Shown here: positions 5,119 to 9,433 of the stretch, one piece after another
How the letters are laid out: the number at the start of each line of letters is the position of its first letter
Numbering within the stretch: the first letter of the stretch is position 1
From: an alpha proteobacterium U9-1i
Lineage (GTDB): Bacteria; Pseudomonadota; Alphaproteobacteria; Caulobacterales; Aquidulcibacteraceae
Direction of reading: 5' to 3'
Assembly: GCA_000974665.1 (NCBI GenBank)
Contig: BBSY01000002.1
Coordinates: 1-64,000, forward strand
Length of the DNA stretch: 64,000 nucleotides
Position numbers and translations under genes: made by a program
Notes under the pieces: generated by a model
What the model saw: only the letters and a program-made list of their open reading frames with translations
Databases searched by the model: none
What the model was told of the DNA's origin: nothing

Positions 5119-6807
5119 TTGGCGTCGCCCGGCGCCCCCACCCGTCGGCCCACGCGGCCGAGCGCCGTCGGTGAAACCTGGCGGGCCAATCCATTTCATC
5201 GCATGCGCTTGGGCGACGGCGCGCCCGAACGCATCGCCCGCTGGGGATCGGACGCGCGCGTCGGCGACGCCGCGCGCGGGCGCGAACTGGGCATGGGCGT
5301 CTGGCGCATCGGCGCAGAACGTATCGACGCCGCAAGCCCTTGGCGGGCCGAGCACCCCTCGCGCCACTTCACGGCCCGTCTGCATGCGTTCGGCTGGCTT
5401 TGCGATCTCGCCGCGGTCGGCGCTTCGGCGGAACGGCGCATCGCTGAATTGATCGACGATTGGGTCAGCCATTTCGGCGAGTGGGACGAACTGGCGTGGG
5501 ACGCCGAACTCACCGCCGAGCGTCTGTTCGCGTGGCTCTGCTGGGGCCGACCGGCATTCGAGCACGGCGCGGCGGAATTGCGCGACGATTTGATGCGCTC
5601 GGTCGCGCGGCAAGCGCGCTTGCTGCTCGTCTCGCAAAGCGATCTGGAAGATCGCCATGTCGGCGCGATCAAAGCCGGCGCGGCGCTGGTGCTCGCGGGC
5701 GCGGCGGGCTTGCCCGATTCACGCCGCCTTGCCGAGCAAGGCGAGGAAATGCTGATCGAGGCGTGCGCCAAGCAATTCCACGCTGATGGCGGCCATCAAT
5801 CGCGGTCGCCTGAAACCTTGCTCGAAGCGCTGTGCGATCTCGTCACCGCCAACGATGCGCTGGACGCCATGGGCGAACCCTCCCCGGTCATCCGCGACAC
5901 GCTGCCGAAGCTTGCGAACATGCTGCGCATGTTGCGCATGGGCGATGGCGGGCTTGCTTGCTTCAACGGCGGCTCGGAAGCCTCAAGCGCCACCATCGAT
6001 GTTGCGCTCGGCCGCGCTGGTGGCGACGTGCGCGCCATCCAATTCGCGACGCAATCGGGCTTCCAGCGTCTGGAAGCCGGGGCGATGCGGGCTTTGTTCG
6101 ATGTTGGCGGCGCCCCGCCCGCGAGCTTTTCCGAACGCGCGCACGCCGGCGCCTTGGCGTTTGAGCTTTCCAGCGAACGCGAGCGGCTGATCGTCAATGT
6201 CGGCGCGGCGCGCGATCTTGAGCCGGCCGCGCGTTTCGCCGCGCGCGCCACCAACGGCCATTCCACGCTCGTCATCGATGATGCGCTCTCGGCGATGTTC
6301 GAGGACAATCGCCGCGGCAAGAGCCCGCCGCGTCTGTTCGGCCCGATCCTGGACGACGTGCGCCGCTCCGCCGATGACAGCGGCACAACCGTGCAAGGGC
6401 GCCACGACGGCTACAAAGTGGAGTTCGGCCTGCTGCACCGGCGCTATCTGTTCATCGACACCGAAGGCAAGAACCTGCGCGGCATTGATGAATTGATGCG
6501 GCCGACCAAACTCAAATCACCCAACCCGAAAGCGCCGATCCCATTCGTCGCGCGCTTCCACCTGCATCCCGACGTGCGCGCGCGTTTGGTGGAACACCAG
6601 ATGGCGCAACTCGAAACGCCTGGCGGCCAACGCTGGCGCCTCCGCACCGACGCCCCCAACGTCGCCATCGAGCCCTCAATCTATTGGGGCGGCAAACAAG
6701 TGCCGCGCGAAAGCCTGCAGATCGTGCTGAGCGGCGAAGCTGATCCGATGGGTCATGGCCTCGCGCCGCCGAACCGGATCAGATGGGCGTTGGCGCGGTT
6801 GGCTTGA
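5119..6807 (+). CDS. Heparinase II/III family protein
   Basis: About 562 residues from a TTG start three bases after rpe. The N-terminal part is alpha-helical (ADELTAERLFAWLCW-like repeats, HADGGHQSRSPETLLE), and the C-terminal part is a beta-rich heparinase II/III-like sheet domain (GRHDGYKVEFGLLHRRYLFI). Family members are polysaccharide lyases. Alphaproteobacterial copies between rsmB/rpe and purH are very common; I cannot name the substrate. No signal peptide is visible, so it may act on internal material. Confidence 0.8.
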   Translation: MASPGAPTRRPTRPSAVGETWRANPFHRMRLGDGAPERIARWGSDARVGDAARGRELGMGVWRIGAERIDAASPWRAEHPSRHFTARLHAFGWLCDLAAVGASAERRIAELIDDWVSHFGEWDELAWDAELTAERLFAWLCWGRPAFEHGAAELRDDLMRSVARQARLLLVSQSDLEDRHVGAIKAGAALVLAGAAGLPDSRRLAEQGEEMLIEACAKQFHADGGHQSRSPETLLEALCDLVTANDALDAMGEPSPVIRDTLPKLANMLRMLRMGDGGLACFNGGSEASSATIDVALGRAGGDVRAIQFATQSGFQRLEAGAMRALFDVGGAPPASFSERAHAGALAFELSSERERLIVNVGAARDLEPAARFAARATNGHSTLVIDDALSAMFEDNRRGKSPPRLFGPILDDVRRSADDSGTTVQGRHDGYKVEFGLLHRRYLFIDTEGKNLRGIDELMRPTKLKSPNPKAPIPFVARFHLHPDVRARLVEHQMAQLETPGGQRWRLRTDAPNVAIEPSIYWGGKQVPRESLQIVLSGEADPMGHGLAPPNRIRWALARLA

Positions 6808-6821
6808 GTCGCACTTCTCCG

Positions 6822-6925
6822 CCGTCATCCCGGAGCCGCGAAGCGGCATCCGGGACCCAGGGGCAAACGATGGACCCTACGACGCCCTGGGTCCCGGCTC
6901 TCGCTCCGCTCGGCCGGGATGACGG
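6822..6925. repeat. Dispersed palindromic element, copy A
   Basis: A 104-bp imperfect palindrome with outer arms CCGTCATCCCGG and CCGGGATGACGG, and inner arms CCGGGACCCAG and CTGGGTCCCGG. The same element recurs at 7685-7787 and 21883-21985. It fills most of the gap after the heparinase-like gene. Confidence 0.85.
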
Positions 6926-7015
6926 AGGGTCTGCCATCCCGGCGAGAGCGCACATTCGGGAGATGCGGGCGTGGTGATATCTTGACGGCAACCTTGAGCT
7001 CACCGTGGAGCCACC

Positions 7016-7252
7016 ATGTTCACTATTGAGGACGAGGCTCACGCCGAACTCCAAGATGGAGAATTCGGAACCGAACAGGACGCGATGACCGAACTGCGTC
7101 GACGCGCGGCGATCCCCTGGAACGAAGAGCCAAATCTTGCGCCTTGCACGAACGTGTTAGTGGAGTACGACAAAACGGCCACGCCTCGGCGTGAGAGGTC
7201 CAGGCGAGCGATCCTCGACATCAGCGCGGAAGGCGTGTTTTGGCATACGTGA
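7016..7252 (+). CDS. Conserved small hypothetical protein
   Basis: 78 residues, acidic N-terminus (MFTIEDEAHAELQDGEFGTE) and the stretch RRRAAIPWNEEPNLAPCTN, which I recognise as typical of a short alphaproteobacterial protein of unknown function (usually an arginine-rich block, a PW motif and a central Cys). No membrane segment or signal peptide. It stands alone between the palindromic element and the microprotein pair. Confidence 0.6.
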   Translation: MFTIEDEAHAELQDGEFGTEQDAMTELRRRAAIPWNEEPNLAPCTNVLVEYDKTATPRRERSRRAILDISAEGVFWHT

Positions 7253-7367
7253 GTGACAAAGGTTTGGGCCAAGTGCGGACACCCCTGTGCCCCCGGTCAC
7301 ATCGCCCCAGCCTAGGCCGACATAGGTTCTCTTCATCGAAGCGCTGATGCTTCTGGGGAGCACCGAG

Positions 7368-7460
7368 ATGACCAAGTTCTACAGCCTGATCGCCGCCGCC
7401 GCAGTCTTCGCCCCGATGGCCTGGACCGTGATGAACCAAGCCGCGCAGATCGTCGCCTGA
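7368..7460 (+). CDS. 30-residue hydrophobic microprotein, first copy
   Basis: 30 codons plus TGA: begins MTKFYSLIAAAAVFAPMAW and ends AAQIVA. A GGGGAG ribosome-binding site stands 7 bases before the ATG. The sequence has a basic N-terminus, then one hydrophobic stretch (about residues 4-22), so it could sit in the inner membrane or be exported. It is 22/30 identical to the second copy, 32 bases downstream. I do not recognise a function. Confidence 0.65.
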   Translation: MTKFYSLIAAAAVFAPMAWTVMNQAAQIVA

Positions 7461-7492
7461 TCGTCTCCAGCACAGTTTCCGAGAGCACTCCC

Positions 7493-7585
7493 ATGACCAA
7501 GTTTTACACCCTGCTCGCCGCTTGCGCCGTGTTCGCACCAATGGCGATGGCCACCCTCTCCCAGGCCGCTCAAATCGTCGCGTAA
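7493..7585 (+). CDS. 30-residue hydrophobic microprotein, second copy
   Basis: 30 codons plus TAA: begins MTKFYTLLAACAVFAPMA and ends AAQIVA, with the same start, hydrophobic run and end as the first copy. Changes cluster in residues 19-23. Conservation of the start (MTKFY), of VFAPMA and of QAAQIVA across both copies while the middle varies is what one expects of real coding sequence. The pair ends at a strong terminator. Confidence 0.65.
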   Translation: MTKFYTLLAACAVFAPMAMATLSQAAQIVA

Positions 7586-7618
7586 TCTCCCGCCTCAACG
7601 CCGATTTCAGCAGCCAAA

Positions 7619-7653
7619 GAAGGCCGCGGAGGATCTCCCCCTCCGCGGCCTTC
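7619..7653 (+). terminator. Strong hairpin terminator after the microprotein pair
   Basis: GAAGGCCGCGGAGG (7619-7632) pairs perfectly with CCTCCGCGGCCTTC (7640-7653) around a 7-base loop (ATCTCCC). The following bases (GTCTGTTCTG) are moderately T-rich. It closes the microprotein unit before palindromic element B and purH. Confidence 0.75.
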
Positions 7654-7684
7654 GTCTGTTCTGGGGCATGAAGCTACTAGCTCT

Positions 7685-7787
7685 CGTCATCCCGGACACG
7701 CGAAGCGTGATCCGGGACCCAGGGGCCAACGACGTGCCCTACGATCCCCTGGGTTCCGGGTTTCGCTTCGCGAGCCCCGGAATGACG
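7685..7787. repeat. Dispersed palindromic element, copy B
   Basis: 103 bp, same family as 6822-6925. It starts CGTCATCCCGGACACGCGAA, has inner arms GATCCGGGACCCAGG and CCTGGG, and ends CCCCGGAATGACG. It lies 60 bases before the purH start. Confidence 0.8.
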
Positions 7788-7846
7788 AAGAAGCAGCGAC
7801 ACCCCGTTCCCTCCCCCCGCCGGCTCGAATCCCCTAGAACCCGGCC

Positions 7847-9433
7847 ATGCCTGACATTCTCCCCCTCTGCCGCGCGCTCATTTCGGTTTCCGACAAAACG
7901 GGGCTGATCGACCACGCCCGCGCCCTGGCGGAAGCCGGCGCAAAGCTCGTCTCTACCGGCGGCACCAAGGCGGCGATCGCCGATGCAGGGCTGGCGGTCG
8001 AAGACGTCTCCGCCGTCACCGGCTTTCCGGAGATGATGGATGGCCGCGTGAAGACGCTGCACCCGAAGGTGCATGGCGGCCTGCTGGCGCTGCGGGACGA
8101 GCCAGAGCACGCGAAGGCGATGGCCGAACACGGCATCGAGGGCTTCGATCTTCTGTACGTGAACCTCTATCCGTTCGAAGCCACCGTCGCGCGCGGCGCG
8201 GCGTTCGATGATTGCATCGAGAACATCGACATTGGCGGCCCGGCGATGATCCGCGCCGCGTCGAAGAATTTCGGCTACGTCGCCGTCGCCACCGACGCCG
8301 ACGACATGGCGGCGGTGCTGGCCGAACTCAAAGCGAACGGCGGCACCACCTTGGCGCTGCGAAAGCGCCTTGCCGCCAAAGCCTACGCACGCACCGGCGC
8401 CTATGATGCGGCGATCTCGAACTGGTTCGCGGCGCAGCTCGGCGACGAGGCGCCGGCGTGGCGGGCGATTGGCGGCAAGCTGCAGCAAAGCCTGCGCTAC
8501 GGCGAAAACCCGCACCAGAACGCGGCCTTCTATGTGAACGGCGAAAAGCGCTTCGGCGTCGCCACGGCGAAGCAGCTCCAGGGCAAGGAGCTAAGCTACA
8601 ACAATCTGAACGACACCGACGCCGCGTTTGAACTGGTGGCGGAGTTCGATCCAGCCGAAAGCGCGGCCGTGGCGATCATCAAGCACGCCAATCCCTGCGG
8701 CGTCGCGTTGGGCGCCAATCTGCTCGAGGCCTATCAGCGCGCGCTCGAGTGCGATTCCACATCCGCCTTCGGCGGCATCGTCGCCGTCAATCGCCGGCTC
8801 GACAAAGCCGCCGCCGAAGCCATCGCCGAGATTTTCACCGAGGTCGTCATTGCGCCGGAAGCGGATGAGGACGCGATCGCGGTGTTCGCAAAGAAAAAGA
8901 ATCTCCGCCTGCTCGTCACCGGCGGCTTGCCCGATCCCGCCGCCCCCGGCCTTACCGCAAAAACCGTCGCCGGCGGCCTGCTGGTGCAATCGCGCGACAA
9001 TGGCCGCATCAGCGCTGCCGACTTGAAGATCGTCACCAAGATCAAGCCAACGGACGCGCAAATCCGCGACATGATCTTCGCCTTCCGCGTCGCCAAGCAC
9101 GTGAAGTCCAACGCCATCATTTACGCCAAGGACGGCGCGACGGCCGGCGTCGGCGCGGGGCAAATGAGCCGCATCGATTCCGCGCGCGTCGCCCGCCGCA
9201 AGGCCGAGGACGCCGCCCACGCCGCCGGCTGGCGCGATCCGAAAACGGTTGGCTCGGTCTGCGCCTCGGACGCCTTCTTCCCGTTCCCGGACGGGCTAAT
9301 GCAAGCTGTGCAAGCCGGCTCGATCGCCGTCATCCAACCCGGCGGCTCAATCCGCGACGAGGACGTGATCAAGGCCGCAGACGATGCCGAGATCGCCATG
9401 GTGTTCACCGGCATGCGTCACTTCCGGCACTGA
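7847..9433 (+). CDS. purH: Bifunctional AICAR transformylase/IMP cyclohydrolase
   Basis: 528 residues, standard length. The N-terminal MGS-like IMP cyclohydrolase domain ([32 protein letters not shown]) is followed by the AICAR formyltransferase domain ([12 protein letters not shown] about 209-222, KHANPCG about 281-287, [10 protein letters not shown] about 471). It makes the last two steps of de novo IMP synthesis. No other purine gene is adjacent. Confidence 0.97.

Follow-up and report, generated by a model that had tools for sequence, protein, structure and literature searches.

The window, a 64,000-nucleotide stretch of contig BBSY01000002.1 from the alphaproteobacterium U9-1i, contains two adjacent 93-base frames at 7368 to 7460 and 7493 to 7585, with the products MTKFYSLIAAAAVFAPMAWTVMNQAAQIVA and MTKFYTLLAACAVFAPMAMATLSQAAQIVA, respectively. 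The two peptides are identical at 22 of 30 residues (73%) and differ at residues 6, 8, 11, and 19 to 23, with five of the eight differences falling within the block from 19 to 23. The first frame is preceded by a GGGGAG ribosome-binding site at 7355 to 7360, and the second by a weak GAGAG alone. A hairpin with arms at 7619 to 7632 and 7640 to 7653 forms a perfect 14-bp stem and is classed as terminator-like, though the T-run on its 3′ side, GTCTGTTCTG, is poor. The initial annotation had reported the adjacent frames, the clustering of changes in residues 19 to 23, the good ribosome-binding site of the first frame, and the perfect hairpin closing the unit, and all of these were recovered; its picture of tandem microproteins with their own terminator fits all of the computed results, as does its suggestion that the hydrophobic run may serve membrane insertion or export. 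The unit lies between genes that we take to be a heparinase-like gene on one side and purH on the other, has a predicted transcript of about 330 nt, and comprises the following features.

7287..7300, + strand: CRP-like palindrome GTGCCCCCGGTCAC, one mismatch to GTGAC-N4-GTCAC, centered at predicted position −41.5
7323..7328, + strand: −10-like element TAGGTT, matching the family promoter pattern
7335..7367, + strand: predicted leader, its start (A7335) placed by the usual −10 distance
7338..7353, + strand: 5′ stem-loop GAAGC-loop-GCTTC, from folding; stems are common in family leaders
7355..7360, + strand: ribosome-binding site GGGGAG, from the sequence
7368..7460, + strand: microprotein 1, MTKFYSLIAAAAVFAPMAWTVMNQAAQIVA, from frame, similarity, profile match, and codon selection
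7493..7585, + strand: microprotein 2, MTKFYTLLAACAVFAPMAMATLSQAAQIVA, from frame, similarity, profile match, and codon selection
7619..7653, + strand: intrinsic-terminator-like hairpin with a 14-bp perfect stem and a 7-nt loop

Searching the U9-1i genome (4.05 Mb in five contigs) with the second peptide gave 13 places, with E values from 1.1e-13 to 0.146. A family profile (A1), whose 34 rows include some of these 13 copies, recovered the same 13 with E values from 1.8e-16 to 1.9e-7, the next match being at 0.32. The pair in the window forms a single unit of a multicopy family scattered through the genome. Profile matches at an E value of 0.01 were found in 38 of 299 genomes sampled from the order, comprising 29 of the 30 genomes of the same genus, 7 other genomes of the same family, and 2 marginal cases (E values of 0.002 to 0.007) elsewhere in the order. 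The same-genus genomes carry 0 to 25 copies, with at least 10 in 22 of the 30, and the genome with zero is 57% complete. Across the class, 385 sampled genomes gave a single match at an E value of 0.001, in the window's own genome, and none in the 384 others. The named genome collection yielded 52 loci, which lie in MAGs called Hyphomonadaceae, Caulobacterales, and Alphaproteobacteria and also in one uncultured Caulobacteraceae and one Terricaulis sp.; in PMC12700997, Terricaulis and Vitreimonas form a clade sister to Hyphomonadaceae. Weak matches in G034, G044, G045, and G057 (E values of 0.2 to 0.4) were left uncounted.

In total, 302 domain matches were reduced to 244 distinct copies by requiring an E value of ≤0.05 and a C terminus at most 3 residues from the stop and by removing duplicates. 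Among them, one broken copy (L117) is counted as two pieces, and seven copies lack an assigned ATG; an ATG was assigned in 237 of the 244, and 182 have exactly 30 residues. Scanning of 34 members against Pfam, NCBIfam, PHROGs, and PADLOC gave no profile match over the cut-off; the best matches below it were PsbX in Pfam (E value of 0.0072; 2 of 34), FliQ in NCBIfam (0.0069; 1 of 34), and one in PHROGs (0.074; 1 of 34), with none in PADLOC. No PDB sequence matched the family at E values up to 1, a literature search showed no report of the family, and the motif QAAQIVA occurs in no paper of the library searched. Phage or plasmid cargo was considered and rejected, as one peptide was unmatched among 50,697 phage records and 72,556 plasmid records. 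The genus-level microprotein family is real and apparently undescribed, and genes of 30 codons probably fall under the usual annotation limits.

Codon usage was analyzed in the 216 of 244 copies that have the anchor QAA, which inflates conservation at residues 24 to 26. The 216 distinct 28-codon cores have entropies of 0.93, 0.62, and 1.24 at the three codon positions. Read in frame, they give a pS of 0.530 and a pN of 0.285, compared with pS/pN values of 0.330/0.344 and 0.261/0.378 in the shifted frames. This codon pattern reflects purifying selection on the family peptides, and both frames of the window look like genuine genes. The initial annotation had tied its reading to homologous frames in relatives and to synonymous sites varying more than nonsynonymous ones; the former are present in nearly all same-genus genomes, as described above, and the latter holds for the window pair itself, with a pS of 0.578 versus a pN of 0.184 (dS of 1.10 and dN of 0.21).

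In a typical unit, the palindrome GTGAC-N4-GTCAC and a −10 element TAnnTT precede a 5′ stem-loop, followed by a single ORF or a pair of ORFs and then a terminator. A palindromic box matching 7 or all 8 of the arm bases was found in 138 of the 244 upstream regions, compared with 6 in the reversed and 9 in the shuffled controls; the other 106 regions are boxless. Among 129 units that passed a first filter, TAnnTT lay 22 nt after the palindrome in 125, with a tie-break that favored 22; when the tie-break was removed, TANNNT was exactly 22 nt past the box in 126 of 137 cases (controls, 0 of 4 and 0 of 4). Because the −10 element is placed at its usual distance from the predicted start, the center of the GTGA-N6-TCAC site falls near −41.5, the class II position. 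Most of the tested family units have a common promoter layout. An SD-like motif precedes 166 of the 244 copies.

In the U9-1i genome, all five exact matches to the full promoter pattern precede family copies, as do three of the five with one mismatch, including that of the window. Allowing up to three mismatches gave 24 matches versus 8 in the reversed control, and the bare palindrome gave 11 distinct sites, 6 of them before copies, versus 3 in the control; of the five sites elsewhere, L178 was read. In eight relatives, the full pattern with at most one mismatch occurs 69 times and never in the reversed form; 56 of these 69 best CRP-type sites directly precede one of these 30-codon genes, and 56 of the 125 copies in these eight genomes lie directly behind such a box. 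The family makes up most of a small predicted regulon. Among the remaining 13 sites, ten lie before genes for proteins that, by eye, are short or look exported, and another stands before a short frame resembling a tail-less relative. At L195, the box and hairpin remain and the peptide frame is absent. Other genes also follow the box: at L194 (G010:C25:3641), one of these 13 sites, an ECF sigma factor gene (PF07638) lies behind a family box and a similar leader stem-loop, and at L178 (G000:C2:1856168), L186, and L190, the box is followed by an exported-looking protein of about 153 to 162 residues with repeats of a CRxxYDxLPA...WGGRV-type motif, the U9-1i member having no Pfam match over the cut-off.

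Of the 118 distinct leaders, 115 were folded, and 81 of these form a stem of 5 or more pairs close to the predicted 5′ end (mean z of −1.32). Perfect stems of 6 bp or longer, in several sequence versions, occur in 51 of the 115, compared with 2 of 115 shuffled leaders. The RNA structure of the whole unit in the window did not stand out (z of −1.15, with 10 of 100 shuffles equally good). A terminator-like hairpin follows 152 of 194 last copies, versus 5 of 194 mononucleotide shuffles; this count leaves out 48 copies with another copy after them and 2 with short flanks. A leader-peptide or attenuator role was rejected because those 152 copies have terminator-like hairpins of their own and the neighbors of the U9-1i units look unrelated by eye. 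The 71 distinct adjacent pairs in the family have a median gap of 33 nt. They were also considered as fixed two-peptide systems, which was rejected since the identities of first with first (0.62), second with second (0.70), first with second (0.61), and partners (0.66) are not cleanly separated.

The gap between the heparinase-like gene and purH was within the fetched locus in 13 relatives and contains no copy in any of them; it lay outside the fetched locus in 16 other relatives, and scanning all 29 loci with the profile gave no copy. Six of eight other U9-1i loci (L038, L039, L040, L041, L042, and L045) match relatives over at least 100 residues outside the peptide, L044 matches in short stretches only, and L043 in the peptide region only. 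The lack of copies from this gap in relatives, and the presence there of most of the other loci, suggest that the window pair arrived specifically in this lineage. The unit closest to the window in leader and second peptide, as judged by eye, is at C2:528593, with a peptide 97% identical. The region of the pair is flanked on each side by a 97-nt palindromic repeat (6823 to 6919 and 7685 to 7781; the copies 81% identical), which is perhaps REP-like and perhaps related to the arrival of the unit here. Elsewhere in the genome, L044 1-5001 (G000:C2:1300500-1305500) holds a cluster of several divergent copies, comparable with L106, L113, L121, L131, and L143, with an EF-hand-like gene upstream; by eye, GCATCC motifs accompany two or three boxless copies there, and the copies are followed by hairpins lacking a clear frame.

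The U9-1i genome gave 13 HTH_Crp_2 matches, with six proteins over the cut-off, one of them Lrp/AsnC-like by eye and only one of them carrying RExxxR. The candidate regulator combines a cNMP-binding domain and a Crp-like HTH domain with the helix SREKVNR, and the closest proteins of solved structure belong to the Crp/Fnr family and have the helix GASRETVNK. Its gene lies about 2.4 kb before a family copy. Seven of nine further regions from relatives hold the candidate regulator, six of them together with a family copy, and the helix GASREKVNR is present in all seven loci where it was read, each of which has a family copy. At L246 (G014), the candidate regulator and a box are present and the peptide frame is absent; the remaining two regions (G018 and G023) are other loci, with a family copy and without the candidate regulator. 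The tie between this putative regulator and the family is thus one of gene-order linkage, not proof. Autoregulation was considered and rejected: GTGACGTCAGGCAC lies 139 nt before the regulator start and, by eye, lacks the 22-nt spacing to TAnnTT. A predicted exported M1 aminopeptidase is encoded between the regulator and the peptide gene in U9-1i and in two of the six relatives. Beside the copy at G000:C3:607594, L041 1302-2162 encodes a class III nucleotide cyclase domain (PF00211), which is possibly a source of the CRP ligand and possibly a coincidence.

The peptides have the layout of a signal peptide, with a positive n-region, a hydrophobic core, a helix breaker, and small residues at −3 and −1. 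In the 216 cores, K/R3 is present in 211, A10 in 207, P16 in 202, A18 in 210, A/S20 in 196, Q24 in 213, I/M28 in 212, and V29 in 194, with the columns of P16, A18, and Q24 to A26 inflated because the profile used to pick the copies already has these residues. Signal peptidase sites follow the −3/−1 rule. Scored for small residues, and at −3 also V, I, or L, residues 18 and 20 obey this rule in 215 of the 233 copies used (of 244), compared with a mean of 69.2 and a maximum of 87 in shuffled peptides; P16 is present in 222 of the 233. The variable block from 19 to 23 straddles the putative cleavage site, and the first window peptide, with T at position 20, would have a weaker one. The commonest tails among the 244 copies are TLNQAAQIVA (45), TLNQAALIVA (22), and TLSQAAQIVA (15), and 129 are distinct. 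With a mean entropy of 1.31 in the seven nonanchor tail columns versus 1.45 in columns 2 to 20, the tail is modestly better conserved than the remainder of the peptide. The best 19-residue Kyte-Doolittle window is at least 1.6 in every measured peptide (mean of 2.09), and the peptides are probably membrane targeted. An AlphaFold model consists of one helix at 2 to 29 (pLDDT of 84; pTM of 0.34), which would fit an uncleaved span equally well and does not separate a signal peptide from a membrane span.

These features lead us to favor, with roughly even confidence, a reading in which CRP-type activation would switch on genes for peptides that are targeted to Sec and whose conserved tail would reach the periplasm. 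A cyclic-nucleotide-binding CRP-type activator, for which the SREKVNR protein is the candidate, would bind at −41.5 and activate as class II, and the 5′ stem-loop may stabilize the short mRNA. Sec would then take the peptide to the inner membrane, with K3 as the n-region and residues 4 to 15 as the core, and signal peptidase I could cut after residue 20. The C-terminal decapeptide, most commonly TLNQAAQIVA, would act in the periplasm, either after release or while displayed there, and the many copies, arising by duplication and loss, would raise dosage. The hydrophobicity throughout the family and the single modeled helix are also what would be expected of uncleaved single-span inner-membrane microproteins (N-in, C-out) that bind and tune a membrane complex and are multicopy for dosage, with the conserved QAAxIVA end as a possible packing face; however, the combination of P16 with small residues at 18 and 20 matches the signal-peptidase pattern, and we regard this reading as a real possibility, though less likely than not.

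Two further explanations are improbable. Small size, hydrophobicity, tandem and dispersed paralogues, and a structured leader would suit multicopy type I toxin genes repressed by antisense RNA, as in Ldr, Ibs, and TisB. However, the activator-type promoter and the frequent SD-like motif suggest expression that is switched on, and none of the 34 members matched PADLOC. A scan of both strands from 6800 to 7900 gave no sigma-70-like site, a weak negative for an antisense promoter because the scan also misses the family promoter. A toxin role is very unlikely on this evidence. We give equally little credence to dual-function or mainly regulatory small RNAs in which the ORF is secondary: the predicted transcripts are short and have a conserved 5′ hairpin and a terminator, but selection acts on the amino acids, and the Rfam matches consist of one tRNA only. 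Extending the favored reading of exported tails, Gram-negative linear-peptide signaling, in which a CRP-like regulator and a cyclic nucleotide would drive up to 25 genes for near-identical exported decapeptides with copy number setting the dose, is a speculative and rather unlikely scenario; the M1 aminopeptidase might trim the released peptide.

Its many copies, conserved tail, single promoter type, and single candidate regulator make the family a clean model in which to test microproteins that are exported or reside in the membrane. Ldr, Ibs, and TisB are enterobacterial small membrane proteins or type I toxins of about 20 to 35 residues with one hydrophobic segment. By this description, the family resembles them in size, in the single hydrophobic segment, and in tandem and dispersed paralogues, and differs in its activator-type promoter and A-x-A motif; an antisense promoter was not seen in the window with the weak scan described above. 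The candidate regulator aligns over both domains with the Crp/Fnr structures 3i54, 3d0s, and 3r6s, which we take to be MtCRP and GlxR, and shares the helix GASRExVN. Pheromones of the short hydrophobic peptide (SHP) type have an active C-terminal tail. The family resembles them in its short hydrophobic peptides, tiny genes, and several copies in some genomes, and differs in its Gram-negative host, signal-peptide-like layout, free-standing units, and CRP-type promoter; if the tail is released, this would be an unusual linear peptide system for a Gram-negative bacterium. The streptococcal SHPs act with Rgg (PMC3679016). CgrA of Rhodospirillum centenum, an alphaproteobacterial CRP homologue, recognizes TGTGA-N6-TCACA (PMC4681086), and the GTGA-N6-TCAC operator of the family is alike, whereas across the nine genomes scanned here a single microprotein family lies behind most of the best sites.
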